Position numbers and translations under genes: made by a program. Below are positions 19,356 to 34,180 of a stretch of DNA of 64,000 nucleotides, in pieces. Each line of letters begins with the position of its first letter. Position 1 is the first letter of the stretch. A model generated the notes under the pieces. It saw only the letters and a list, made by a program, of their open reading frames with translations, did no database searches and was not told the DNA's origin. This stretch comes from Actinomycetota bacterium. Lineage in GTDB: Bacteria; Actinomycetota; Acidimicrobiia; Acidimicrobiales; CADCSY01. The DNA is taken from positions 1 through 64,000 of the forward strand of contig SIRW01000022.1 of the NCBI GenBank assembly GCA_004366205.1. Direction: 5' to 3'.

Positions 19356-20000
19356 ATGCCGACCCTCTCGGAGGCCGAGTCCAAGGCCCGCCTCGCCGCC
19401 CACGGCGTGCCCGTGCTCGACGAGCGGGTGGCCGGCACCGCCGACGAGGCCGTCGGCGCCGCCCACGAGCTGGGCTTCCCGGTCGTCGCCAAGCTGTGCG
19501 GCGACGCCATCGCCCACAAGACCGAGCGGGGCCTGGTGCGCCTCAACCTCGGCGACGGCGAGGCGGTGCGCTCCGCGGCGACCGACCTGCTCGCCGCCGC
19601 CCGCCCCGAGGACGGCGCCGTCGGCGTGCTCGTCGCGCCGCAGGTGCGGGCCACCCGGGAGCTGATCGCCGGCCTCAACCTCGACCCGCAGTTCGGGTTG
19701 ACCGTGATGCTCGGCATCGGCGGGGTGCTCGCCGAGGCGCTGGGCGACGTGGCGTTCCGGCTGGTGCCGCTGACGCGCACCGACGCCGAGGAGATGCTCG
19801 ACGACCTCGCCACCCAGGCCCTGCTCGGCGCCTTCCGGGGTGAACCTCCAGTCGACCGTGAGGCCGTGGTCGACGTGCTGCTGGGTCTCGCCGGCCTGGC
19901 CGAGGCGGACCCGAGCGTGCGGTCGGTCGACCTCAACCCGCTGATGATCGTCGAGGGGCGGCCCGTCGCCGTCGACGCCCTCGTCGAGGTGGCGCCGTGA
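19356..20000 (+). CDS. ATP-grasp subunit, ADP-forming acetyl/acyl-CoA synthetase (beta-like)
   Basis: LSEAESKARLAAHGVPV, GFPVVAKLCGDAIAHKTERGLVRLNLGD, SVDLNPLMIVEGRPVAVDALVEV. Confidence 0.88.
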   Translation: MPTLSEAESKARLAAHGVPVLDERVAGTADEAVGAAHELGFPVVAKLCGDAIAHKTERGLVRLNLGDGEAVRSAATDLLAAARPEDGAVGVLVAPQVRATRELIAGLNLDPQFGLTVMLGIGGVLAEALGDVAFRLVPLTRTDAEEMLDDLATQALLGAFRGEPPVDREAVVDVLLGLAGLAEADPSVRSVDLNPLMIVEGRPVAVDALVEVAP

Positions 20001-21469
20001 CGGTGCCCGACCGGTCCGGCTTCGAGGCGCTGTTCGCCCCCCGGGGGGTGATCGTGGCCGGCGCCTCGACGCATCCGGGCAAGTTCGGGTTCGTGGCGCT
20101 CCACAACATCCTGCGCAACGGCTACCCCGGCAAGGTGTTCGCCACGAACCGCGAGGGCGGCGAGGTGCTCGGCGTGCCGTGCGCCACCTCGATCGACGAC
20201 CTGCCCGACGGCGAGGCCGACCTCGTCTTCGTGTGCACGCCCGCGGGCGCGAACCCCGACCTGCTGCGCGCCTGCGCGAAGAAGGGCGTGCGAGCCGCCT
20301 TCGTCACCTCGGCCGGCTACGGCGAGGCGGGCGAGGAGGGCAGGCGGGCCGAGGCCGACCTGGTCGCCCTCGCCGGTGAGCTGGGGATGCTGCTCGCCGG
20401 GCCCAACGGTCAGGGCGTCGTGTCGACGCCGGCGTCGCTGTGCGCCCAGATCGTGGCGCCGTACCCGCCGGCGGGGCGCATCGGCATCGCCAGCCAGTCG
20501 GGCAACTTCGTGTCCAGCTTCATGAACTACGCCGTGCAGACCGGCGTGGGGGTGAGCCGGGCCGTGTCGGCGGGCAACGCCGCGGCCACGACCGTGCCGG
20601 ACTACCTCGACTTCTACGCCGAGGACCCCGAGACCGCCGTCGGGCTCGCCTACGTGGAGAGCATCCCCGACGGGCGGGCCTTCTACGAGCGGGTGAAGGG
20701 CGTCGTCGAGCGCAAGCCGCTCGTGGTGCTGAAGGGGGGCGCCACGGCCGGCGGGCAGCAGGCGGCGGCGTCGCACACGGGGGCGCTGGCCACCGACGAC
20801 CGCCTGTTCGACGGGATGTGCCGGCAGGCCGGCGTCACCCGCGCCGCGACGGTGGAGGAGGCCTTCGAGGCCGCGGCCACGTTCGCGACCCAGCCGCTCC
20901 CCAAGGGGCCGAGGACCGTGGTCGTCACGACGGCCGGGGGCTGGGGCGTCGTCACCGCGGACGCCATCACCCGCAGCTCGCTCGAGCTGGCGCCCCTGCC
21001 GGACGACCTGCGGGCCGCGATCGACCAGAAGCTGCCGCCCCGGTGGAGCCGCAACAACCCCATCGATCTCGCCGGCGGCGAGACCCGGGACACGATCCCC
21101 GAGGTCCTCGAGCTCGTCGCGAGCCACCCCGACGTCGACGCTGTGATCTACCTGGGGCTCGGCATCCAGTCGAACCAGGCCCGCACGATGCGCACCGGCC
21201 CCTACTACCCGGATCACGGCCTCGAGCGGATCGTCGACTTCCACGAGCGCCAGGACCGGCGCTACGCCGAAGCGGCGGCCGCCGTGTCCGAGGCGACGGG
21301 CAAGCCTGTGCTCACCGCCACCGAGCTGGCCGTGGCCATGCCCGACAACCCCGGGCCCGCCGCCGTCCGGGAGAGCGGGCGGCTCTGCTACGCCGCCTCC
21401 AACCGGGCCGTCACGGCCCTCGATCACCTGTGGCGGCACGCCCGCTGGCGCCAGCGTCGCGGCCTCTGA
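19997..21469 (+). CDS. CoA-binding/ligase subunit, ADP-forming acetyl/acyl-CoA synthetase (alpha-like)
   Basis: FAPRGVIVAGASTHPGKFGFVALHNIL, LLAGPNGQGVVSTPASLCAQI, SHTGALATDDRLFDGMCRQAGV; 4-bp overlap with the upstream gene. Confidence 0.88.
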   Translation: MTVPDRSGFEALFAPRGVIVAGASTHPGKFGFVALHNILRNGYPGKVFATNREGGEVLGVPCATSIDDLPDGEADLVFVCTPAGANPDLLRACAKKGVRAAFVTSAGYGEAGEEGRRAEADLVALAGELGMLLAGPNGQGVVSTPASLCAQIVAPYPPAGRIGIASQSGNFVSSFMNYAVQTGVGVSRAVSAGNAAATTVPDYLDFYAEDPETAVGLAYVESIPDGRAFYERVKGVVERKPLVVLKGGATAGGQQAAASHTGALATDDRLFDGMCRQAGVTRAATVEEAFEAAATFATQPLPKGPRTVVVTTAGGWGVVTADAITRSSLELAPLPDDLRAAIDQKLPPRWSRNNPIDLAGGETRDTIPEVLELVASHPDVDAVIYLGLGIQSNQARTMRTGPYYPDHGLERIVDFHERQDRRYAEAAAAVSEATGKPVLTATELAVAMPDNPGPAAVRESGRLCYAASNRAVTALDHLWRHARWRQRRGL

Positions 21470-21560
21470 CCGCCACGCCGGGGCCGGCACCCGCCCCGCC
21501 GCCTCCCCGTGCGCGCCCCGCCCACCCCGACCCATCAGCCCCGCTCACCCACCCGTCCGG

Positions 21561-21613
21561 TTCTGGGTGGGCACCGGTCCAGCATCGCGAGACCACAGCC
21601 CCCCAGAACGGGG
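21561..21613. repeat. Solo hairpin element related to the 28856-29094 array unit
   Basis: TTCTGGGTGGGCACCGGTCCAGCATCGCGAGACCACAGCCCCCCAGAACGGGG: 53 nt, same length as the array unit, sharing TTCTGGGT..., a central CATCG at the same offset, and ...CCAGAACGGGG. Confidence 0.6.
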
Positions 21614-22497
21614 TGGTGCTGCGGGCGGTGGCGGCGGTCGCGCTGGCCGTGGCGATGGTCGCGGCGGGTGCGCCGGGGGCGGCCGGCCAGGGAGCCGGGG
21701 CGACCGGCGGGGCGGGCGTGCCCCGGCCCGACGCGCCCGTGCTGACGGCGCGCCGGCTACCGGGCGCCCTGGTGGCGCCGATGGCGGAGTCCCGGCTGGT
21801 CGAGTCGCTCTCGCAGGTGCTCGCCACCGGCCCGCCCGCCACCTGCCTCATCGTGGGGTCGGGACGGGACCGGATCGTCGAGCACCGGGCGCACGAGGCC
21901 CTCGTCCCCGCCTCGGCCATCAAGCTCGTGACCGCCTTCGCAGCCCTGCGCCGGGCCGGCGGCGAGTCCGACCCGGCGGTGGCCGCCGACGTCCGGCGCG
22001 CCCTCGCCGACAGCGGCAACGACGCCGCGACCCGCCTCCTCGCCGCGGCCGGCGGAGGCGACGCCGCGGTGGCGGCCCTCGCCGAGGCCGGGCTCCCCGC
22101 CGCCGGCGTCGTGGTGACCGACGGCACCGGCCTCGACCGCGGGAACCGGGCGACGTGCGCGGCCATCCAGGCGATCCTCGAGGCCGGGCGGGGCGGCGCC
22201 CTCGACGAAGGCCTCGCCGTGGCCGGCGAGACCGGGACGCTGCGGACCCGGTTCGTCGGGACACCCGTCGAGGGGCGCCTGCGCGCCAAGACGGGCTCGA
22301 TCCGGGGCGTGGTCGCCCTCGCCGGGCACGCCGGGACGCGCACCGGGGGCCGCCTCACGTTCACCCTGCTCGCCAACGGGATCCCCGACCTCGCCGCCGG
22401 GGAGCGCCTCCAGGAGCGCCTCGCCACCGTCCTCGTCGCCCACCCGGACCTGCCCGACCTCGACCTGATCGGCCCGCGGGGCTACCGATGGCGATGA
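21613..22497 (+). CDS. Compact D-alanyl-D-alanine carboxypeptidase/PBP4-like (S13) serine hydrolase, secreted
   Basis: Signal-like VLRAVAAVALAVAMVAAGAPGAAG; catalytic motifs SAIK (SxxK), SGN (SxN) and KTG in LRAKTGSIRGVVALAGH. Confidence 0.8.
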   Translation: MVLRAVAAVALAVAMVAAGAPGAAGQGAGATGGAGVPRPDAPVLTARRLPGALVAPMAESRLVESLSQVLATGPPATCLIVGSGRDRIVEHRAHEALVPASAIKLVTAFAALRRAGGESDPAVAADVRRALADSGNDAATRLLAAAGGGDAAVAALAEAGLPAAGVVVTDGTGLDRGNRATCAAIQAILEAGRGGALDEGLAVAGETGTLRTRFVGTPVEGRLRAKTGSIRGVVALAGHAGTRTGGRLTFTLLANGIPDLAAGERLQERLATVLVAHPDLPDLDLIGPRGYRWR

Positions 22498-23138
22498 CCG
22501 GGAGCGCCCTGGACCCCGACGCCCGGCCCCAGGCCCTTCCCATGTTCCCGCTCGGGACGGTGCTCCTGCCCGGCGCCACCCTGCCCCTGCACGTGTTCGA
22601 GCCCCGCTACCGGGCCCTCGTGCAGGACTGCCTCGCCGGCGACCGGTCGTTCGGGGTCGTGCTGATCGAGCGGGGGAGCGAGGTCGGCGGTGGCGACGTG
22701 CGCAGCGGCGTGGGGTGCCGGGCGGTCATCCTGGCCGCCGACGAGCTCCCCGACGGCCGGTGGGTGCTCGCCGCCCTTGGGACCGACCGCATCCGGGTGA
22801 CCCGCTGGCTGCCCGACGACCCCTACCCCCGGGCCGAGGTCGAGCCGTGGCCCGACGACGTCGACCCGCCGCCGCTCACGGTCGGGGACGTGGCGGCCCG
22901 CCTCACCCGCGTGCTGGCCCTGACGGCCGAGCTGGGCCACGACGTGCCCGAGGTGCCGGACCTCGGCGCCGCCGACGACGTCACGGCCTCCTACGTGCTC
23001 GCCGCCCTCGCCCCGCTTGGGCCCCTCGACCGCCAGCACCTGCTGGCCGCCGCCGGTCCGGCGGCCCGCCTCGGGCGGCTCGCCGAGCTCCTCGACGACG
23101 AGGCCGCCTTCCTTGCACGGCGACTGGCCCAAGGGTAG
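22488..23138 (+). CDS. LON peptidase substrate-binding-domain protein
   Basis: LPMFPLGTVLLPGATLPLHVFEPRYRALVQDCLAGDRSFGVVLIERGSEVGGGD. Confidence 0.9.
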   Translation: MAMTGSALDPDARPQALPMFPLGTVLLPGATLPLHVFEPRYRALVQDCLAGDRSFGVVLIERGSEVGGGDVRSGVGCRAVILAADELPDGRWVLAALGTDRIRVTRWLPDDPYPRAEVEPWPDDVDPPPLTVGDVAARLTRVLALTAELGHDVPEVPDLGAADDVTASYVLAALAPLGPLDRQHLLAAAGPAARLGRLAELLDDEAAFLARRLAQG

Positions 23139-23193
23139 GAAGTGGCGCCACCGGGTAGCCACCGCCCGACCGTTCCGCCATCCGGGAGCCGCC

Positions 23194-23520
23194 GTGCCCG
23201 AACCCCGCCAGGACGCCGCCAGCCTGCCCGAGCTCGTCACCGAGCTGTGGGAGCTCGTCGTCGCCTACGCCAAGCAGGAGACGATCGAGCCGATCAAGGG
23301 CCTGGGACGCTTCGTGGCGTTCGGGGTGGCGGGCTCGCTCCTGCTCGGCATCGGCCTGGTCATCCTCCTGATCGCCGTGCTGCGCGCCCTGCAGACCGAG
23401 ACGGGCACGACGTTCGAGGGCAACTGGTCGTGGGCGCCGTACCTCATCACCGTCGCCGTGGGCCTGCTGCTCGTCGCCTTCGCCATGGCCGGCACCCGCA
23501 GCAAGGGAGGATCTTCGTGA
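23194..23520 (+). CDS. Membrane protein, phage-holin-family/DUF1469-like
   Basis: Two hydrophobic helices, FGVAGSLLLGIGLVILLIAVLRAL and APYLITVAVGLLLVAFAMAG; GTG start. Confidence 0.7.
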   Translation: MPEPRQDAASLPELVTELWELVVAYAKQETIEPIKGLGRFVAFGVAGSLLLGIGLVILLIAVLRALQTETGTTFEGNWSWAPYLITVAVGLLLVAFAMAGTRSKGGSS

Positions 23521-23735
23521 GCACGGCCGAGCGCACCGAACCCGTCACCCGCGACCAGATCGAGGCCAAGCTGCGCCAGATCCAGGGCAGCGCCGAGTCC
23601 ACCGGCGAGAGCGTGAAGGGCATCGCCGTGGCCGCCGGCGCCACCGTCGTGGTCGGCGTCGTCGTGCTCGCCTACTTCCTCGGCCGGCGCAAGGGGCGGC
23701 GCCGGTCCACCGTCGTCGAGATCCGCCGGGTCTGA
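23517..23735 (+). CDS. Small single-pass membrane protein with basic C-terminus
   Basis: VSTAERTEPVTRDQIEAKLRQIQGSAESTGESVKGIAVAAGATVVVGVVVLAYFLGRRKGRRRSTVVEIRRV; overlaps the upstream stop. Confidence 0.7.
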   Translation: MSTAERTEPVTRDQIEAKLRQIQGSAESTGESVKGIAVAAGATVVVGVVVLAYFLGRRKGRRRSTVVEIRRV

Positions 23736-23756
23736 CGCCCGCCGCCGCGACCGACG

Positions 23757-23972
23757 ATGGCCGGAGGATCGATGCTCAAGAAGCTGACGACGACCGGGGT
23801 CCGCAAAGGCCTGCTCGGCGGCAGCCGGGCGTGGACCGTGGTCGCGGTCGTCGCCGTCGGCGTGCGCCTCCTGGGCCGCCTCGCCCGTTCCGAGCCCGAG
23901 GTCGTCTACTGCGAGGAGCTCGAGCCCGGGCAGTCGCTCCTCATCCGCCACGACGCCGTGAGCGGCGGCTGA
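23757..23972 (+). CDS. Small hypothetical membrane-associated protein
   Basis: MAGGSMLKKLTTTGVRKGLLGGSRAWTVVAVVAVGVRLLGRLARSEPEVVYCEELEPGQSLLIRHDAVSGG. Confidence 0.6.
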   Translation: MAGGSMLKKLTTTGVRKGLLGGSRAWTVVAVVAVGVRLLGRLARSEPEVVYCEELEPGQSLLIRHDAVSGG

Positions 23973-24032
23973 CGCCCGACGCCCGGGCGGAACCGGCGCC
24001 CGGCTGCCCGGATCGGTGCGCGGAGCGCCAAG

Positions 24033-24242
24033 ATGGAGGCGATGAGGGTCACGCTGCGCAACCCCCGCAGGGAGATCGAGCTGCCCGGGCCGATGCGGGT
24101 CCAGCAGCTGCTCGACACGCTCGAGCTGAACCGCGAGTCGGTGCTGGTGATCGACGGCGGCACCCTCGTGCCCGGCGACGCCCTGCTGGCCGACGACGCC
24201 GACGTGGAGATCCGGCCCGTGATCTCGGGGGGCGCAGCGTGA
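24033..24242 (+). CDS. Ubiquitin-like sulfur carrier (MoaD/ThiS/TtuB-like)
   Basis: [66 protein letters not shown]; ThiS/TtuB-like pattern with near-terminal GG; 4-bp overlap with a TtuA-like gene. Confidence 0.82.
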
Positions 24243-25144
24243 AGTGCCGGGTCTGCCGGGAGCCGGCCGTCATCGACATCCGCCGCCACAACGCCAACTT
24301 CTGCGCCGAGCACTTCCTGCGCCACTGCCGCGACCAGGTGCAGAAGGCGATCGAGGGCCACGGCATGCTGACCGAGGGCGACCGCGTGCTCGTGGCGGTC
24401 TCCGGCGGCAAGGACTCGCTCGCCCTCTGGGACTTGCTGCTCGACCTCGGCTACGACGCCGACGGGCTCTACATCGGGCTCGGCATCGGCGAGTACAGCG
24501 ACGAGTCCGGCCGCTGCACCCGGGCCTTCGCCGAGCGCCGGGGCGCCAGGCTCGTCGAGGTCGACCTGCGCACCGAGTACGGCTTCGACATCCCCTCGGG
24601 CAGCCGGGCGGCGCGCCGGGCGCCCTGCTCGGCGTGCGGGCTGTCGAAGCGCCACGTGTTCGACCGGGCCGCCCTCGACGGCGGCTACGACGCCGTGGCC
24701 ACCGGCCACAACCTCGACGACGAGGCCGCCGTGCTGCTCGGCAACGTGCTGCGCTGGCAGACCGAGTACCTGGGCCGGCAGCAGCCCGTGCTCGAGGCCC
24801 GGCCCGGGTTCCCCAGGAAGGTGAAGCCCCTCGTGCGCCTCGGCGAGCGGGAGATGGCGGCCTACTGCGTGCTCCGGGGGATCGACTACATCGTCGAGGA
24901 GTGCCCCATGGCGGCCGGCAACCGCCACATCGGCTACAAGGAGGCGCTCAACGCCATCGAGGAGCGCTCGCCCGGGAGCAAGCACGCGTTCTACTTCGGG
25001 TTCCTCGAGCGGGCCGCGGACCGCTTCACCGCCGAGGCCGAGCAGGACCGCGACGAGCTGCGGCCCTGCGCCACGTGCGGCGCACCCACACCCGGTGAGG
25101 AGTGCGCCTTCTGCCGGCTCGTCGCCCGAGCCACGAGGGACTGA
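24239..25144 (+). CDS. ttuA: TtuA/Ncs6-family tRNA 2-thiolation enzyme
   Basis: N-terminal zinc finger [29 protein letters not shown]-loop [33 protein letters not shown]-terminal zinc finger [16 protein letters not shown]. Confidence 0.87.
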
Positions 25145-25953
25145 TGGGGCGGCCGCTCGAGCCGGGGGAGCGGGTGCTCCTCGTCGACAGCCGCGGTCGG
25201 CGCTACCTCGTCGAGCTCGCCCCGGGTGGCGAGTTCCACTCGCACACCGGCGTCGTCGACCACGGCGCCCTGATCGGGGTGGAGGAGGGCACGACCGTGC
25301 GTTCCTCCACCGGGGCCCGCTACACGGTGCTGCGACCGAGCCTCGCCGACTTCGTGCTGCGCATGCCCCGTGGCGCCCAGGTCGTCTATCCCAAGGACCT
25401 GGCGCCGATGCTCCTGCTCGCCGACGTGCACCCGGGCTCCCGGGTGCTCGAGGCCGGGGTGGGGTCGGGCGCCCTGTCGCTCGCCCTCCTGCGGGCCGGC
25501 GCCCACGTCGTCGGCTACGAGGTGCGCGACGACTTCGCCGGTCGGGCCCGGGCCAACGTGGCCGCCTTCCTGGGGGAGGCCGCGCTCGACCGGTACCGGG
25601 TCGAGGTGCGGGACGTCTACGAGGGCATCGACGAGCACGACCTCGACGCCGTGCTCCTCGACCTCCCCGAGCCGTGGCAGGTCGTCAAGCACGCCGAGCG
25701 GGCGCTGCGGCGCGGGGGCACGCTCGTGGCCTACACGCCCTCGATCGCCCAGGTGATGGCGCTGCGCGAGGCGCTGGCCGGCAGCGACTTCGAGATGATC
25801 GGCACCCAGGAGCACCTCCTGCGCACCTGGCACGTCGAGGGCCAGGCCGTCCGCCCCGACCACCGCATGGTCGCCCACACCGCCTTCCTCACCCACGCCC
25901 GCCTGCTGGGCCCCGTCCCCGGGGGGCTCAAGGCCCAGGCCCCCCTGCCGTAG
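25144..25953 (+). CDS. trmI: tRNA (adenine-58-N1)-methyltransferase TrmI family
   Basis: GRRYLVELAPGGEFHSHTGVVDHGALIGVEEGTTVRSSTGARYTVLRPSLADFVLRMPRGAQVVYPKDLAPML, VLEAGVGSGALSLAL. Confidence 0.92.
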   Translation: MGRPLEPGERVLLVDSRGRRYLVELAPGGEFHSHTGVVDHGALIGVEEGTTVRSSTGARYTVLRPSLADFVLRMPRGAQVVYPKDLAPMLLLADVHPGSRVLEAGVGSGALSLALLRAGAHVVGYEVRDDFAGRARANVAAFLGEAALDRYRVEVRDVYEGIDEHDLDAVLLDLPEPWQVVKHAERALRRGGTLVAYTPSIAQVMALREALAGSDFEMIGTQEHLLRTWHVEGQAVRPDHRMVAHTAFLTHARLLGPVPGGLKAQAPLP

Positions 25954-25960
25954 GCGCGCC

Positions 25961-27121
25961 GTGAACCTGCTCGACCTGCTCGTCGTCTCGATGCTCCTCG
26001 CCGCCGCCCTCGGCGGCTGGCGCCTCGGGTTCTTCGCCCGCGTGGCGTCGTGGGTCGGCATGGCCGCCGGCCTGCTGGTCATGGCCCGGCTCCTGCCCGC
26101 CGTCCTCGAGGCGCTGCAGGGCGCCGACCCGGCCTCCCGCATGATCCTCGCCGTGGGCCTGCTGCTCGGCGCCGCCTTCGCCGGGCAGGCCCTCGGCCTG
26201 GTGATCGGGGCGAAGCTGCACCTGGCGATCCCCGGACCGGGCCGCTCCCTGGACCGGGCGGGGGGCGCGGTCGCCGGGGTCGTCGGCGTGCTGGTCGCCG
26301 TGTGGTTCCTGCTGCCGGCGATGGCCGACGTGCCCGGGACCATGGCCCGCCAGGCCCGCACGTCGACCGTGGCCGGCCTGATCGATCAGCTCGCCCCCCC
26401 GCCCCCCGACACCCTCCAGGCGCTGCGCCGCCTCGTCGGCGAGGCCGACTTCCCACAGGTGTTCCGGGGCTTCCAGGCCGCGCCCGACGTGGGTCCGCCG
26501 CCCGAGGACACCGGCCTGCCGCCGGACGTGATCGAGCGGGTGACGGCGTCGACGATGAAGGTCGAGGGCCGGGCGTGCAACCGGATCCAGGAGGGCAGCG
26601 GGTTCCTGGCGGGGCCGGGCGTGGTGGTCACCAACGCCCACGTCGTGGCCGGCCACGAGCGCACCGAGATCATCCGCCCCGACGGTCAGCGCGTGCAGGG
26701 GGTCGTGACCGTGTTCGACCCCGACCGCGACCTCGCGGTCGTGCGGGTGCCCGAGGGCCTGGCGCCGCCGCTGCCGCTGGGCGAGGGCGCCGTGGGCGTG
26801 GCGGGCGCGGTGTTCGGCTACCCCGGCGGGGGACCGCTGCGGATCGCCCCGTTCGAGATCCGCCAGGAGATCGACGCCGTCGGCCGCGACATCTACGACC
26901 GCAGCGACACCCGGCGGCGGGTGTTCGTGCTGGCGTCCGCGCTGCGACCCGGCGACTCGGGCGCCGCGCTGGTGAACCAGGCGGGTGTGGTGGTGGGCGT
27001 GGCCTTCGCCATCGCACCCGACCGGCCGGGGGTGAGCTACGCCGTGACCCACACCGAGCTCGGCGCCGTGCTCGCCGGCGACCTGAACACGCCCGCCGAC
27101 ACCGGCCCCTGCCTCCGCTGA
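25961..27121 (+). CDS. MarP-like membrane serine protease (CvpA-like domain + trypsin-like domain)
   Basis: N-terminal multi-TM segment; catalytic triad contexts VVVTNAHVVAG, DPDRDLAVVRV, LRPGDSGAALVNQ. Confidence 0.87.
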   Translation: MNLLDLLVVSMLLAAALGGWRLGFFARVASWVGMAAGLLVMARLLPAVLEALQGADPASRMILAVGLLLGAAFAGQALGLVIGAKLHLAIPGPGRSLDRAGGAVAGVVGVLVAVWFLLPAMADVPGTMARQARTSTVAGLIDQLAPPPPDTLQALRRLVGEADFPQVFRGFQAAPDVGPPPEDTGLPPDVIERVTASTMKVEGRACNRIQEGSGFLAGPGVVVTNAHVVAGHERTEIIRPDGQRVQGVVTVFDPDRDLAVVRVPEGLAPPLPLGEGAVGVAGAVFGYPGGGPLRIAPFEIRQEIDAVGRDIYDRSDTRRRVFVLASALRPGDSGAALVNQAGVVVGVAFAIAPDRPGVSYAVTHTELGAVLAGDLNTPADTGPCLR

Positions 27122-27203
27122 GCATCGCCCGTTCCCGGGGCGGCCCCGTCACCTGATCGTCACTTGACGTTCCGTCCGCTGGTGCGGACAGTGCACCGCG
27201 ACG

Positions 27204-28835
27204 GTGGTGGGCGGCGGGCGGGAGGTGGCGATGGCAGGCGGGCGGTGGATGGCGGGGCGCCCGCACGACCCCGGCGGGGTCGGGCCCGGGCGAGGCAGGT
27301 GGGCGCGACGGGGGACCCGGGACGGCACGGGGGCTGGATCGCGCCTCGCCCGGCGGCGGGCGGCGCTCGCGGCGGTGGCCGCCGCCGCCGCGCTCGTGGT
27401 GCCGGCAGGCGACGGGGCCGGCGCCGCCTTCCGGCCGACCGGCGTGGGCGACCTGCCGGGGCCCCACCAGGGCACGACCCAGGCCGTCGTCGCCCTCACC
27501 TTCGACGACGGGCCCCACCCGGTCTGGACGCCGGCGGTGCTCGACGTGCTCGACCGCTACGGCGTGCCCGCCACGTTCTTCCCGATCGGCAGCCTCGCCG
27601 AGCGCCACCCCGACATCGTGCGCCGGGTCGTGGCCGAGGGCCACGCCCTGGGCAACCACACCTGGAGCCACCGGGACCTGACCCGGCTGCCGGCGGGCGC
27701 GTGGCCGGGCGAGGTCGACCGCGCCACCCGGCACCTGGCGGCGCTCGCCGGCCAGCCCGTGACCTGCCTGCGCCCGCCGTTCGGGGCGACGAGCGCCGGC
27801 GTGCGCTCCCAGCTCGCCGCCCGCGGGCTGACCGAGGCGCTCTGGACCCACGACACCCGGGACTTCCGTCGGCCCGGGGTGGACGTCATCGTCACGGAAG
27901 CCCTGCGCGACCTGCGGCCGGGTTCGGTGATCCTGTTCCACGACGGTCCCGGGGACCGCAGCCAGACCGTGGCGGCACTACCGCGCGTCATCGAGGGCAT
28001 CCGGGCCCGCGGGTTCCGGATCGTGCCGGTCTGCGGGACCGCCGCCCGGGGCCCGGAGCGCCCGGCGGTCGCGCCGTTCGGCCCGGTGGGCGTGGGCGAC
28101 CGCAGCGCGGGGGTGGTGTCGGCCGGCCGGCTGGTGGGGATGGCGGCGTCACCGTCGGGCCGGGGGTACTGGCTGGCGGCCGCCGACGGCGGCGTGTTCA
28201 CCTACGGGGACGCCGCCTTCCACGGCTCCGCCGGCGGCCTCCGCCTCGCCGCCCCCGTCGTGGGCATCGCCGCCACCCCCACCGGGCGCGGGTACCGGCT
28301 GGCGGCCGCCGACGGCGGGGTGTTCACCTACGGCGACGCCGCCTACCGGGGTGGCCTCGGGCACGTGCAGCTGAACGCCCCGATCGTGGGCATCGCCTCC
28401 ACGCCGGGCGGCGGGGGCTACTGGCTCGTGGGGGCCGACGGCGGCGTGTTCACCTACGGGGACGCCACCTTCCACGGCAGCCTCGGCCACGTCCGCCTCG
28501 CCGCACCCATCGTCGGCGTCGCCACCACACCGACCGGCCGCGGCTACTGGCTGGCGGCTGCGGACGGCGGGGTCTTCACCTTCGGGGACGCTCGCTTCCA
28601 CGGCAGCCTCGGCCACGTCCGCCTCGCCGCACCCATCGTGGGCATCGCCGCCACACCTCCTGGGTGGCGGGAGGGGTCGGGCGGGGGGTACTGGCTGGCC
28701 GGCGCCGACGGCGGCGTCTTCACCTTCGGGGATGCGCCGTTCCAGGGCTCCCGTGCCGGCTCCGGGGTGAGCCATCGCGCCATCATCCCCTCACCCCAGG
28801 GCGGCTACTGGCTCCTCGGCGCCCGCCCCGCCTGA
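27204..28835 (+). CDS. Polysaccharide deacetylase (NodB-type) with C-terminal [14 protein letters not shown] repeats
   Basis: [50 protein letters not shown]; five C-terminal repeats of the form [39 protein letters not shown]. Confidence 0.85.
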
Positions 28836-28855
28836 CCGGCGCACCACCTCGACCG

Positions 28856-29094
28856 TTCTGGGTACGCCAGGTTTCGCCATCGTGGAACCGGCGCGTACCA
28901 GAACGGGGAACGCGGCGTTCTGGGTACGCCAGGTTTCGCCATCGTGGAACCGGCGCGTACCAGAACGGGGAACGCGGCGTTCTGGGTACGCCAGGTCTCG
29001 CCATCGTGGAACCGGCGCGTACCAGAACCGGGAACGCGGCGTTCTGGGTACGCCAGGTTTCGCCATCGTGGAACCGGCGCGTACCAGAACGGGG
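28856..29094. repeat. Tandem array of four 53-nt hairpin units with 9-nt spacers (62-bp period)
   Basis: TTCTGGGTACGCCAGGTTTCGCCATCGTGGAACCGGCGCGTACCAGAACGGGG starts at 28856, 28918, 28980 and 29042; spacer aacgcggcg. Unit 3 differs at two positions (gTCtcg, aaCcggg). Each unit is an imperfect palindrome. Confidence 0.97.
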
Positions 29095-29152
29095 AGGGGA
29101 GGACGCGGGGCGCGGCGAGCGGCGGACGAGCGCGACGGGGGCCGGACGCGCA

Positions 29153-29178
29153 GGAACCCCCGGCGGAGCGGGGGTTCC
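29153..29178. terminator. GC-rich perfect hairpin between convergent genes
   Basis: GGAACCCCCG-GCGGAG-CGGGGGTTCC: 10-bp perfect stem, 6-nt loop, no U tract; lies between the 27204 CDS (+) and the ferredoxin (-). Confidence 0.6.
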
Positions 29179-29230
29179 CGGCGCGCAGCCGGCCCGAGGG
29201 GGGAGCGGGCGCTGCGGGTCGAGTGGCCGG

Positions 29231-29473
29231 TCAGTCGACCTCGATGAAGATGCACTCGCCGGGGCACTCCTCGGCGGACTCGATGACCGCCTCCTCCTGC
29301 CCGGCGGGCACGTTGGCGAGGCCCTCGGCGCCGCCGGGGTCGCTGAAGACCTTGTCACCCTCCTTGACGTAGGCCAAGCCGTCGTCGAGGAGCGTGAACA
29401 CGTCAGGAGCGATCTCCTCGCACAGGCCGTCACCCGTGCAGAGATCCTGGTCGATCCAGACCTTCATGCCCAT
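29231..29473 (-). CDS. Ferredoxin
   Basis: [39 protein letters not shown]...[14 protein letters not shown]; CxxxxxC...CxxxC spacing of actinobacterial single-cluster ferredoxins. Confidence 0.88.
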
Positions 29474-29680
29474 GCGGCTGCACCCTTCCTTCGTGCTCGG
29501 TTCCCGGTGGCTCCGGGGTGGTCGATCTCGCTCTTTCAATTTACCCGGTACCGACGGGGGAAACCCAACTTTGCCGTGAGACGTCCGGCACGTCCCCCGG
29601 CACGTCGCAGGCACGGCTCCGCCCGCTCGGTGGGACACCGGTGTATCGTCGCCGATGAGGGCGACCAGGAGGTGGCCTCG

Positions 29681-31447
29681 GTGGCAGATGCGGAGACCGA
29701 ACGACGACTCGCCGAGCAGGAGAGCGAGCTGGCCGAGCTGCGCCAGCACGCCAAGGTGCTCGAGGAGGAGGTCGTCTCGCTGCGCCGGCGGCTCCAGGAG
29801 GCGCCCAAGCGGGTGCGCACCCTCGAGGAGCGCCTGCTCGAGACGAAGGGCCAGCTCGCCCAGGCCGTCTCGCAGAACGAGAAGCTGACCTACACGCTGC
29901 GTGAGGCCCGCGAGCACATCGCCGCGCTGCGCGAGGAGGTCGAGAAGCTCACCCAGCCGCCCGCCGCCTACGGCACCCTCATCGGCCACAACGACGACGG
30001 CTCGGTCGACGTGTTCTCCGGCGGCCGCAAGATGCGGGTGGCCGTGCACCCCGACCTCACCGAGGCCGACCTGCCCCGGGGGGCCGAGGTCGTGCTGAAC
30101 GAGTCGCTCAACGTCGTGCTCGCCCGGTCCGCCGAGCGAGCCGGCGAGGTCGTGGTCCTCAAGGAGGTCATGAACGGCCAGAACCGGGCGATCATCGTGG
30201 GACGGGCCGACGAGGAGCGCGTCGTCGAGCTCAGCGACGCGCTCGTCGGCACGCCCCTGCGCGCCGGCGACCACGTGCTGATGGACCCCCGGTCGGGGCT
30301 GCTGCTCGAGCGCCTGCCCCGGCCCGAGGTCGAAGAGCTCGTGCTCGAGGAGGTCCCCGACATCGCCTACGCCGACGTGGGCGGCCTCGACGACCAGATC
30401 GAGCAGATCATCGACGCCGTCGAGCTGCCCTTCGTGCACCAGGCGCTCTTCGCCGAGTACCGGCTGCCCGCGCCCAAGGGCATCCTGCTGTACGGCCCGC
30501 CCGGCTGCGGCAAGACGCTCATCGCCAAGGCCGTGGCCAACTCCCTGGCCAAGAAGGTGGCCGAGGTGTCGGGCGACGCCAACGCCCGCAGCTTCTTCCT
30601 CAACATCAAGGGCCCCGAGCTGCTCAACAAGTACGTGGGGGAGACCGAGCGCCAGATCCGCCTGGTCTTCCAGCGGGCCCGGGAGAAGTCCGAGGAAGGC
30701 TGGCCCGTCATCGTGTTCTTCGACGAGATGGACTCGCTGTTCCGCACCCGGGGCACGGGCATCAGCTCCGACATGGAGTCCACCATCGTCCCGCAGCTCC
30801 TCGCCGAGATCGATGGCGTCGAGGCGCTGAAGAACGTCATCGTCATCGGCGCGTCCAACCGTGAGGACCTGATCGACCCCGCCATCCTGCGACCGGGCCG
30901 GCTCGACGTGAAGATCAAGATCGAGCGGCCCGACGAGGAGGCCGCCGCCCAGATCTTCGCCCGCTACCTCACCCCCGACCTGCCCATCGACGCCGGCGAG
31001 GTGGCCACGCTCGGCGGCGGCGACCCGGGCAAGGCGGTGCAGGCGATGATCGAGCAGACCGTCGCCGAGATGTACAAGACCGACGACCGGAACCGGTTCC
31101 TCGAGGTCACCTACCAGAACGGCGACAAGGAGGTCCTGTTCTTCAAGGACTTCTCCTCGGGCGCCATGATCGAGAACATCGTGCGCCGCGCGAAGAAGCT
31201 CGCCATCAAGCGCCAGATCGCGGGCGGGGCCGTCGGCATCCGCACCGACGACCTCGTCGCCTCGATCCACCAGGAGTACAAGGAGCACGAGGACCTGCCC
31301 AACACGACCAACCCGGACGACTGGGCGAAGATCTCGGGGAAGAAGGGCGAGCGGATCGTCTACGTGCGCACCCTCATCACCAGCGGCGAGGAGGAGGCCC
31401 ACGGCGGCCGGTCCATCGAACGGGTGGCGACCGGCCAGTACCTGTGA
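29681..31447 (+). CDS. mpa: Proteasome-associated AAA ATPase (Mpa/ARC)
   Basis: Coiled-coil N-terminus, AAA Walker [54 protein letters not shown]-terminal GQYL (Tyr-containing tail). AGGAGG precedes GTG 29681. Confidence 0.95.
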
Positions 31448-31465
31448 GCCTGTAGCGTCGCGAGC

Positions 31466-32980
31466 GTGGCGATCCGCAAGGTCCTGGGCATCGAGACGGA
31501 GTACGGGATCGTGCTGCGCGGCGCCGGCGAGTCGAACCCGATCGCCGCGTCGTCGCTCCTGATCAACGCCTACGTGTCCGCGTCCGGGCAGTCGGGCGCC
31601 CGCGAGCCCGAGGCGAAGGTGGGCTGGGACTTCGAGGACGAGACCCCCGGCAAGGACGCCCGCGGCTTCGCTGCCGAGGGCGCGCTCGCGCCCGAGGTCG
31701 AGACGCACCTGGTGAACGTCGTGCTCACCAACGGCGCCCGCTACTACGTCGATCACGCCCACCCCGAGCTGTCGGTGCCCGAGTGCGCCACCGTGGACGA
31801 GGCCGTCACCTACGACCGGGCGGGCGAGGAGATCCTCGTCCGCTCCATGGCAGCGGCCCGCAGCCTGCTCGCCCCCGACCAGGAGATCGTGGTCTACAAG
31901 AACAACTCCGACGGCAAGGGCAACTCCTACGGCTGCCACGAGAACTACCTCGTCGACCGGGCGGTGCCGTTCTCTCGCATCGTCACCCACGTGCTGCCGC
32001 ACTTCGTCACCCGCCAGATCTTCACGGGGTCCGGGAAGGTGGGCTCCGAGGCGACCGGCGCGACCAACGACGAGGTGCCCTACCAGCTCACGCAGCGGGC
32101 CGACTTCTTCGAGGAGGAGGTCGGGCTCGAGACCACGCTGAAGCGCCCCATCGTCAACACCCGCGACGAACCCCACGCGGACGCCCAGAAGTACCGGCGC
32201 CTGCACGTCATCGTGGGCGACGCCAACATGGCCGAGGTCGCCACGTTCCTGAAGCTCGGGACCACCGCGATCGTCCTGGCGATGATCGAGGACGACGAGC
32301 TGCCCCGTGAGCTCACGCCCGCCGCCCCGGTGGCGGCGATCCGCGCCGTGTCCCACGACCTGACCCTGCGCCGGCCCATCGAGCTGGCCGACGGAAGCAC
32401 CATGACCGCGCTCGAGATCCAGTGGGAGTACTACGACCGGGCCCGCAAGTACGCCGAGGCCCACGGCCTCGAGGACGCCGTGGGCGAAGCGGTCGGCGCC
32501 GAGGTCCTCCGCCGCTGGGAGGAGGTGCTGACCGGCCTCGAGTCCGACCCGGCGAGCGTGGCCGGCCAGGTCGACTGGGTGGCCAAGCACCGCCTGCTCG
32601 ACGCCTACGCCGCCCGCCACGGGCTCGACTGGGGCGACGCCCGGCTCGCGGCCATGGCGCTGCAGTACCACGACCTGCGGCCCGAGCGCTGCCTGGCCCG
32701 CCGGGTCGGGCTCGAGCGGATCACCACCGACGCGGCTGTCGAGACGGCCGTCAGCGAACCGCCACCCTCGACCCGGGCCTACTTCCGGGGCAAGTGCCTG
32801 CAGCGGTGGGCGAGCAGCATCGTGGCCGCCAACTGGGACTCGCTGGTGTTCGACATCGGCGGCGACCCGCTCCGGCGGGTCCCGATGATGGAACCCCTGC
32901 GGGGAACCGCCGCGCATGTCGATACGTTGTTGGAGGAGTGCGCGACGCCCGCCGAGCTGCTGGAACGGCTGGGCTCGTAG
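31466..32980 (+). CDS. dop: Pup deamidase/depupylase Dop
   Basis: [57 protein letters not shown]; Dop-specific insertion region near the N-terminus. Confidence 0.95.
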   Translation: MAIRKVLGIETEYGIVLRGAGESNPIAASSLLINAYVSASGQSGAREPEAKVGWDFEDETPGKDARGFAAEGALAPEVETHLVNVVLTNGARYYVDHAHPELSVPECATVDEAVTYDRAGEEILVRSMAAARSLLAPDQEIVVYKNNSDGKGNSYGCHENYLVDRAVPFSRIVTHVLPHFVTRQIFTGSGKVGSEATGATNDEVPYQLTQRADFFEEEVGLETTLKRPIVNTRDEPHADAQKYRRLHVIVGDANMAEVATFLKLGTTAIVLAMIEDDELPRELTPAAPVAAIRAVSHDLTLRRPIELADGSTMTALEIQWEYYDRARKYAEAHGLEDAVGEAVGAEVLRRWEEVLTGLESDPASVAGQVDWVAKHRLLDAYAARHGLDWGDARLAAMALQYHDLRPERCLARRVGLERITTDAAVETAVSEPPPSTRAYFRGKCLQRWASSIVAANWDSLVFDIGGDPLRRVPMMEPLRGTAAHVDTLLEECATPAELLERLGS

Positions 32981-33012
32981 CAGGTACGCGAGCGACGAGG
33001 TGATGCAGCACC

Positions 33013-33207
33013 ATGGCCGAACGAGAGCAGAAGAAGAAGCAAGCCCCCGCCCGCCAGGACGAGGTCGTCGAGGACGCCCCCGTCAAGTCCGAGCAGGGCG
33101 AGAAGATCAAGGCCGAGATCGACGATCTCCTGGACGAGATCGACGACGTGCTCGAGACCAACGCCGAGGACTTCGTGCGCTCATACGTGCAGAAGGGCGG
33201 ACAGTAG
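33013..33207 (+). CDS. pup: Prokaryotic ubiquitin-like protein Pup
   Basis: [17 protein letters not shown]...[36 protein letters not shown]-terminal GGQ. Confidence 0.98.
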
Positions 33208-33307
33208 GGTCCGCTGGCCGCCCCGCTCCCCGCAACCCCCCGCCGGCAGGCGGCGTTGTCGAACCGCCGGGACTGAGCGCCGGGACGGGCGGCTAGCCTC
33301 GCCGGCG

Positions 33308-34180
33308 ATGGCTTTCCCGTTCTTCACCCCGGGCGACGACCCCGGTCCGAGCTTCGCCGAGCTCCTCCGGCGCACCGGTGCGGCCCCCCCCGACCCCGCC
33401 GGCGGGTCCCGGCCGACCACCCACGCCCACGGTACCTCGCCGTTGCCGCTCACCCACGGCACCACGGTGGTCGCGGTCCGCTACGCCGACGGCGTGGTGA
33501 TGGCCGGCGACCGCCGGGCGACCTCGGGCCACCTGATCGCCCACCGCACGATGGAGAAGGTGTTCCCCGCCGACGCCCACTCGGGCGTCGCCATCGCCGG
33601 GGCGGCCGGGCCCGCGGTCGAGATGGTGCGCCTGTTCCAGCTGCAGCTCGAGCACTACGAGAAGGTCGAGGGGACGGCGCTCAGCCTGGAGGGCAAGGCC
33701 AACCAGCTCTCCCAGATGATGCGCAGCCACCTGCCCGCCGCCCTGCAGGGCTTCGTGGTCATACCCCTGTTCGCCGGCTACGACCTGCGCCGGGGCCAGG
33801 GGCGCCTGTTCCAGTACGACGTCACCGGCGGCCGCTACGAGGAGCAGAACTTCGCCACCACCGGCTCGGGCAGCCTGCACGCCGGCACGGTCATCAAGCT
33901 GGGCTGGCGCGCCGACCTGTCCCGCGACGACGCCATCGACCTGTTGATCAAGGCGTTGTTCCAGGCCGCCGACGAGGACTCCGCCACCGGTGGCCCCGAC
34001 CTGGTGCGGGGCATCTACCCCACGATGGCGACGATCACGGAGCGGGGCTTCGAGCACCTCGAGGAGTCCGAGGTGGCCGCTCGCTTCCGGGCGCTGGTCG
34101 ACGACCTGTCGACGCCGGAGAGCCCCACGGCGCACGGCGCGACCCCGACGATGGGCCTCGGCCCCCACGGCGAGGGCTGA
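33308..34180 (+). CDS. prcB: 20S proteasome subunit beta
   Basis: Propeptide then GTTVVAVRYADGVVMAGDRRATSGHLIAHRTMEKVFPADAHSGVAIAGAAG. Confidence 0.96.
   Translation: MAFPFFTPGDDPGPSFAELLRRTGAAPPDPAGGSRPTTHAHGTSPLPLTHGTTVVAVRYADGVVMAGDRRATSGHLIAHRTMEKVFPADAHSGVAIAGAAGPAVEMVRLFQLQLEHYEKVEGTALSLEGKANQLSQMMRSHLPAALQGFVVIPLFAGYDLRRGQGRLFQYDVTGGRYEEQNFATTGSGSLHAGTVIKLGWRADLSRDDAIDLLIKALFQAADEDSATGGPDLVRGIYPTMATITERGFEHLEESEVAARFRALVDDLSTPESPTAHGATPTMGLGPHGEG

Follow-up and report, generated by a model that had tools for sequence, protein, structure and literature searches.

Four nearly identical 62-bp repeats at positions 28856-29094 of an actinobacterial contig raise the question of whether they are a duplication confined to this locus or belong to something wider and, if so, what spreads them and what they do at the ends of genes. 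The window, the whole 64,000-nucleotide stretch of contig SIRW01000022.1 that we analyzed, was scanned with Tandem Repeats Finder, which reported a repeat at 28854-29095 with a period of 62, 3.9 copies, a 97% match, and a score of 470. The units start at 28856, 28918, 28980, and 29042, a step of exactly 62 bp. The initial annotation had described four 53-nt units with identical 9-nt spacers at a 62-bp period, units 1, 2, and 4 being identical and unit 3 carrying two substitutions, and in that framing the sequence and Tandem Repeats Finder bore it out. However, the natural cut of the unit is a 48-nt hairpin, TTCTGG-N36-CCAGAA, and a 14-nt spacer, rather than 53 nt and 9 nt. The two substitutions in unit 3 are a T>C in the hairpin and a G>C directly after CCAGAA. 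The features of the locus are as follows.

27375..28835, plus strand: polysaccharide deacetylase gene (PF01522), upstream of the array, its stop 20 bp before unit 1 and its start codon uncertain (27204 or 27375)
28836..28855, no strand: C-rich 20-nt stretch from the deacetylase stop codon to unit 1
28856..28903, no strand: hairpin unit 1, TTCTGG...CCAGAA, 48 nt
28904..28917, no strand: 14-nt spacer CGGGGAACGCGGCG; second copy at 28966-28979, third (one substitution) at 29028-29041
28918..28965, no strand: hairpin unit 2, identical to unit 1
28980..29027, no strand: hairpin unit 3, with GGTTTCG>GGTCTCG within the 48 nt and another substitution just 3'
29042..29089, no strand: hairpin unit 4, identical to unit 1
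29231..29473, minus strand: 4Fe-4S single-cluster ferredoxin gene (PF13459), downstream and convergent

The array unit folds as an imperfect hairpin on both strands, at -35.3 kcal/mol (z, -5.7) on the plus strand and -28.3 kcal/mol (z, -3.9) on the minus strand, in agreement with the imperfect palindrome with TTCTGG...CCAGAA ends that had been annotated. The placement of the array 3' of a polysaccharide deacetylase likewise held, and because the array starts 20 bp past the deacetylase stop and ends 141 bp short of the opposite-strand ferredoxin stop, it lies between converging genes. The C-terminal half of the deacetylase itself contains four 126-bp (42-aa) repeats, at 28150-28657 of the window. 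Although open reading frames (ORFs) of 121 to 216 aa are readable across the array, we accept the earlier view that it is not coding, because family copies elsewhere fall between genes; the intergenic position of copies in the own genome and in relatives also rules out a coding origin of the family. Copies were seen inside predicted ORFs at L055:1969-2016 (G000 C38:4568) and at eight loci of relatives, where either the gene caller overreached or the elements are intragenic. A known Rfam RNA was rejected, since no Rfam family matched in the window at gathering score (the best sub-threshold match was MIR1846, with 24.8 of 77.5 bits).

The unit is widely repeated in its own genome: with one-base tip variants admitted, about 52 copies occupy 38 places, and almost every copy is exactly 48 nt long. 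A blastn-type search found about 30 diverged relatives of the array unit elsewhere in this genome. The pattern TTCTGG-N{36,46}-CCAGAA matched 49 times (length exactly 48 nt in 48 cases) and its reversed control nowhere, and the widened pattern, N{20,50}, gave 52 matches against 3 in the control and added one 47-nt palindrome. The window itself holds a second place:

21561..21608, no strand: single diverged family copy, between a CoA-ligase-like gene (ends at 21469) and a peptidase S13 gene (starts at about 21613)

Relative to genes, the copies of this genome point either way. When all are turned to one orientation, a common consensus emerges, with an imperfect middle and the inner half-sites GTYTCRC, which vary independently in the two arms. 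These half-sites (positions 16 to 33) resemble the parS half GTTTCAC, presumably by coincidence; they are split by 4 nt and are not common to relatives. At pair 21/28, G-C occurs in 0 of 47 units where about 3.6 are expected from column counts, a small asymmetry. The earlier reading had named a unit occurring nowhere else, with no conserved structure in relatives, as the mark of a local slippage duplication, and this outcome was looked for and did not occur. Given the many copies in the own genome and the same tips and conserved structure in relatives, the array is not an isolated product of slippage.

The exact dyad was present in 23 of 59 genomes of the Acidimicrobiales, at up to 48 copies each, with control counts near zero. 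Across the order, the tips and a near-fixed length recur, and the interior palindrome differs by genome or subfamily; examples are GTCGATATCTGCACA (G035), CACCAGATCTGGTCGCC (G021), and CAGGGAAAACCGGACC (G001), and several interiors are found in G024 and in G016. A family member is a hairpin of 43 to 52 nt, most often 48 nt, with a stem of about 22 bp and a 4-nt loop; lengths of 46 nt were seen in G013, of 47 nt in part of G061, and of 43 to 49 nt in G007. The conserved 6-bp tips TTCTGG/CCAGAA extend to CCGTTCTGG/CCAGAACGG, with CCG...CGG outward, and the inverted tips measure 6 to 9 bp. Among the matches listed by a species-wide scan, most were from Acidimicrobiia, and in a phylum sample of 150 genomes more than one match occurred only in the own genome, in one other genome of the order, and in one further genome. 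Matches outside the Acidimicrobiia (Marinobacter, Schaalia, Enterobacter, and others) were set aside as mostly unpaired and at chance level. “Candidatus Obscuribacter” has one well-paired match, the sole one in its genome. One subtype of true 48-nt TTCTGG palindrome occurs several times in the Myxococcales metagenome-assembled genome (MAG) VK_bin-1538 (L101, L113, L151, and L178), possibly through horizontal transfer or mis-binning. In EGI L10123 and UBA9382 (L280 and L299), a base-for-base identical element adjoins what appear by eye to be tRNA genes (GGTTCGAACC-type motif). A literature search found no paper on a TTCTGG hairpin family, which is weak evidence of absence.

The interior of the element stays self-complementary while its sequence is replaced, by compensatory change between genomes. 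With one random unit taken from each of 30 genomes, the 16 interior pairs were 71% Watson-Crick, against 31% with shuffled partners, in a test that located units by their tips, excluded the tips from the count, and used shuffles that ignore relatedness. Compensatory cells numbered 179 against 62 after shuffling, and the observed pairing was reached by 0 of 1,000 shuffles. G024 alone gave 94% paired against 66% shuffled. The arms do not covary within the own genome alone (61% against 64% shuffled), so pairing there rests on the common consensus. The tips were the best paired part of the element, the middle and loop the least. In tandem-context units read in the sense orientation, mismatches comprised 51 G-T and 74 A-C, with no G-U bias; the pairing therefore seems not to be selected on the gene's own transcript and may work at the level of DNA or in both strands.

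Copies lie mainly past the 3' ends of genes. In the own genome, gene calling put 18 of the 38 places between convergent genes, a number that rises to 19 once the ferredoxin overlooked by the simple, approximate caller is counted. A further 16 places were tandem and mostly closer to the end of the upstream gene, 2 were divergent, 1 fell in an ORF call, and 1 lay at the end of a contig. In relatives, the counts were 45 convergent, 60 tandem, 4 divergent, and 8 in ORF calls, compared with 49 convergent, 195 tandem, and 76 divergent for background intergenic regions of the same loci; the tandem cases lay at a median of 19 bp past the stop and 73 bp ahead of the next start. The 25 nt to the left of elements are C-rich (C,.49 to.51; G,.25 to.27) and the 25 nt to the right are G-rich (G,.47 to.48), in convergent, tandem, and divergent contexts (divergent, eight cases only), whereas the 3' flanks of other genes have C at.37 and G at.34. 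This skew reflects a preference for such target sites or else belongs to the functional unit itself. Extension of the stem by the flanks was rejected, as no pairing was found past 3 bp. No orientation bias relative to the flanking gene was consistent across genomes, and the raw flanking dinucleotide CG, found 100 times on the left and 64 times on the right of 132, left no consistent asymmetry once elements were oriented.

Where copies stand in tandem, their spacing follows the lineage. Copies of the own genome within 260 bp of each other start 61 to 62 bp apart in 15 of 16 adjacent cases, and units within one array share one orientation. Spacing is mostly 61 to 63 bp in G016 and 70 to 72 bp in 14 of 18 cases in G013, in which every examined locus is multicopy; G024 has no dimers. 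Since the 25-nt spacers of G013 are unrelated in sequence and its units differ, spacing is a lineage property and not the trace of one recent duplication. Other arrays, with periods of 94, 96, and 107 bp, resemble ordinary tandem duplications that include flank. The window array, with its near-identical spacers, looks like a recent duplication, yet it keeps the lineage-typical period; the recent expansion or conversion that had been proposed from near-identity fits the window's own four units.

Turnover is visible between two close genomes, the isolate EGI L10123 (G063) and the MAG UBA9382 (G064), whose flanks are about 95% identical. Of the sites with both flanks found, in a flank search that covered 4,615 of 5,940 query bases and so all but the last sites (UBA9382 into EGI L10123), 10 were occupied in both genomes and 5 were without the element in UBA9382. 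At L279 and L283, the orthologous site is occupied in both genomes but by differing interior subtypes, a replacement of the interior in place. None of the five absent sites showed a clean 48-bp difference or a target duplication; their flanks differ by several to tens of bases, and because of these extra differences gain is indistinguishable from deletion there. Positions common to genera exceeded expectation about threefold (2.8e-4 against 8.4e-5 gene pairs, with the expectation taken from more distant genes of the same loci), partly owing to this close pair, and the excess hints at function at the site or at an insertion preference. In G013 (L249, 907-2305), proB-like and PspA-like genes are separated by a DUF559/AbiEi-like gene, which has an element dimer to one side and more copies to the other; JPNG_maxbin.048 (L129) has the same gene pair with one element and without the inserted gene.

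What, then, disperses the copies? Local slippage alone would account for the near-identity of the window's four units and spacers, as recent tandem duplication gives, but recurrence in the own genome and in relatives, together with family-wide conservation of structure, refutes it as a full explanation and leaves it barely credible. A classical REP or REPIN moved by a Y1 (RAYT) transposase agrees with the extragenic, palindromic, multicopy elements and their tandem clusters. REP elements are marked at one end by GTAG or CGTC (PMC3733652) and usually exceed 100 copies, and BIMEs alternate in orientation (PMC2817692). Here, there was no GTAG or CGTC tag, the tips being symmetric (TTCTGG/CCAGAA, flanked by CCG/CGG), and about 52 copies in arrays of a single orientation fall below the usual REP number and are unlike alternating BIMEs. 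The Y1/RAYT transposase PF01797 was absent from 15 of 15 carrier genomes and detected in 5 of 14 controls. On these counts the family is REP-like in appearance and not a RAYT-linked REP; short of a loss of the transposase everywhere, movement by RAYT is ruled out in the genomes examined, and we regard it as very improbable. The initial annotation's "REP/MITE-like palindromic element" stands in the broad sense of a short, extragenic, dispersed, hairpin-forming, multicopy element, with the terminal inverted repeats of a MITE in its 6- to 9-bp tips, and falls in the strict sense of RAYT-linked REP membership.

The main rival is a host 3'-end element, a symmetric two-way Rho-type terminator or mRNA stabilizer kept by selection at particular gene ends, with gene conversion, not transposition, making copies alike within a genome. 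Copies mostly 10 to 50 bp past stop codons, favored between convergent genes and avoided between divergent ones, point that way, as do the persistence of most positions between two close species and some excess common to genera. The C-rich, G-poor upstream RNA of Rho-type sites is also present, with C-rich upstream and G-rich downstream flanks on both strands (C.50/G.26 against C.37/G.34), but tandem and divergent contexts show an identical skew, which is thus not tied to the gene's transcript. The tips read TT...AA, the reverse of an A-hairpin-T terminator; there is no T-tract, the hairpin being followed by CGG and G-rich sequence, and the 5 terminator-like sites that lie in 20000-34000 do not include the array. 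A terminator needs neither fixed tips nor fixed length, the sense orientation shows no G-U preference, and a genome of about 3.4 Mb has only 38 such places. The evidence thus speaks against a 3'-end role as the sole cause, which we consider unlikely, and such a role is compatible with spread in trans. The attenuator that had been suggested conflicts with copies that come after genes, are symmetric, and lack a G-U bias in the sense RNA. The same annotation's "protein-binding array" is conceivable: the element could be bound in double-stranded form by a dimer of a DNA-binding or nucleoid protein that reads the tips (42 bp between centers, about four helical turns), with arrays phasing the dimers, which suits the invariant tips, the half-sites of the own genome that vary independently by arm, and the constant array spacing. 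However, it fails to explain an interior palindrome kept through complete sequence replacement, as a dimer reading only the tips would not need pairing, and no common helical phase runs through the observed lengths (43, 46, 47, and 49 nt) and spacings (62 and 71 bp); we consider it improbable.

We favor, at a probability of roughly 60%, a reading in which the array arose by local expansion from a dispersed, order-specific palindromic family; a trans-acting factor that recognizes both tips and hairpin would move or convert its copies, which gene ends tolerate or use. Spread or conversion in trans is the most economical fit to the facts; Y1 is absent from the 15 carriers tested, and no transposase recurs beside copies. 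The copies would be nonautonomous and spread or converted by a protein, a putative mover that reads no fixed sequence but the tips plus folded or palindromic DNA. Copies newly gained, if gain is the direction of change, would be tolerated mainly after genes, where they could double as two-way transcript-end elements with a presumed role in termination; the near-identical units of the window would be a recent local amplification. Against this reading, no mobilizing protein was found and no transposase was recurrent in the neighborhoods examined, neither a clean 48-bp empty site nor a target duplication appeared at the five absent sites, the excess of common positions hints at site function or insertion preference, the arms do not covary within the own genome alone, and copy numbers (about 10 to 50) are low for a mobile repeat. 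More tentatively, the family may be a novel class of mobile or self-converting hairpin DNA, in which a non-Y1 enzyme reads tips and fold at near-fixed length, so that sequence drifts while shape is inherited across the order. In this repeat family, shape and tips are inherited through replacement of the sequence, and the tested carriers of the order are without the only enzyme known to move REPs. Two questions become testable, namely, what moves or converts the hairpins and whether hairpins of fixed shape set transcript ends in the Acidimicrobiales.

Several known systems resemble the family in part. Like REP, REPIN, and BIME elements (PMC3733652, PMC2817692, and PMC3116915), it consists of short intergenic hairpin repeats that often follow genes and stand alone or in regularly spaced clusters, with lineage-specific sequence and a short conserved motif. 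Unlike them, it has tips at both ends rather than a one-sided GTAG/CGTC tag, is 43 to 52 nt rather than 20 to 40 nt long, occurs in tens rather than hundreds of copies without a RAYT gene, swaps its whole interior palindrome while the tips persist across the order, and has flanks with opposite C/G skew. With MITEs it shares short, noncoding elements with inverted terminal ends, dispersed within one lineage; it differs in having no observed target-site duplication, no transposase recurrent beside copies, and interiors that are nonhomologous between genomes although ends and length are alike.

Inverted pairs of uptake sequences in Neisseria and Haemophilus act as terminators. These pairs and terminators, intrinsic or Rho dependent, share with the family an inverted pair of a short motif, a hairpin after genes, and a C-rich lead-in, whereas the family has no T-tract, is the same in all contexts, and has a near-fixed length. 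Integron attC sites are recognized by hairpin structure rather than sequence and have short conserved ends. The family differs from them in having GTT first and AAC last, the opposite order, and in showing no integrase or gene cassettes beside its copies; it resembles them in its short conserved ends and in the structure-based recognition that we propose for it.
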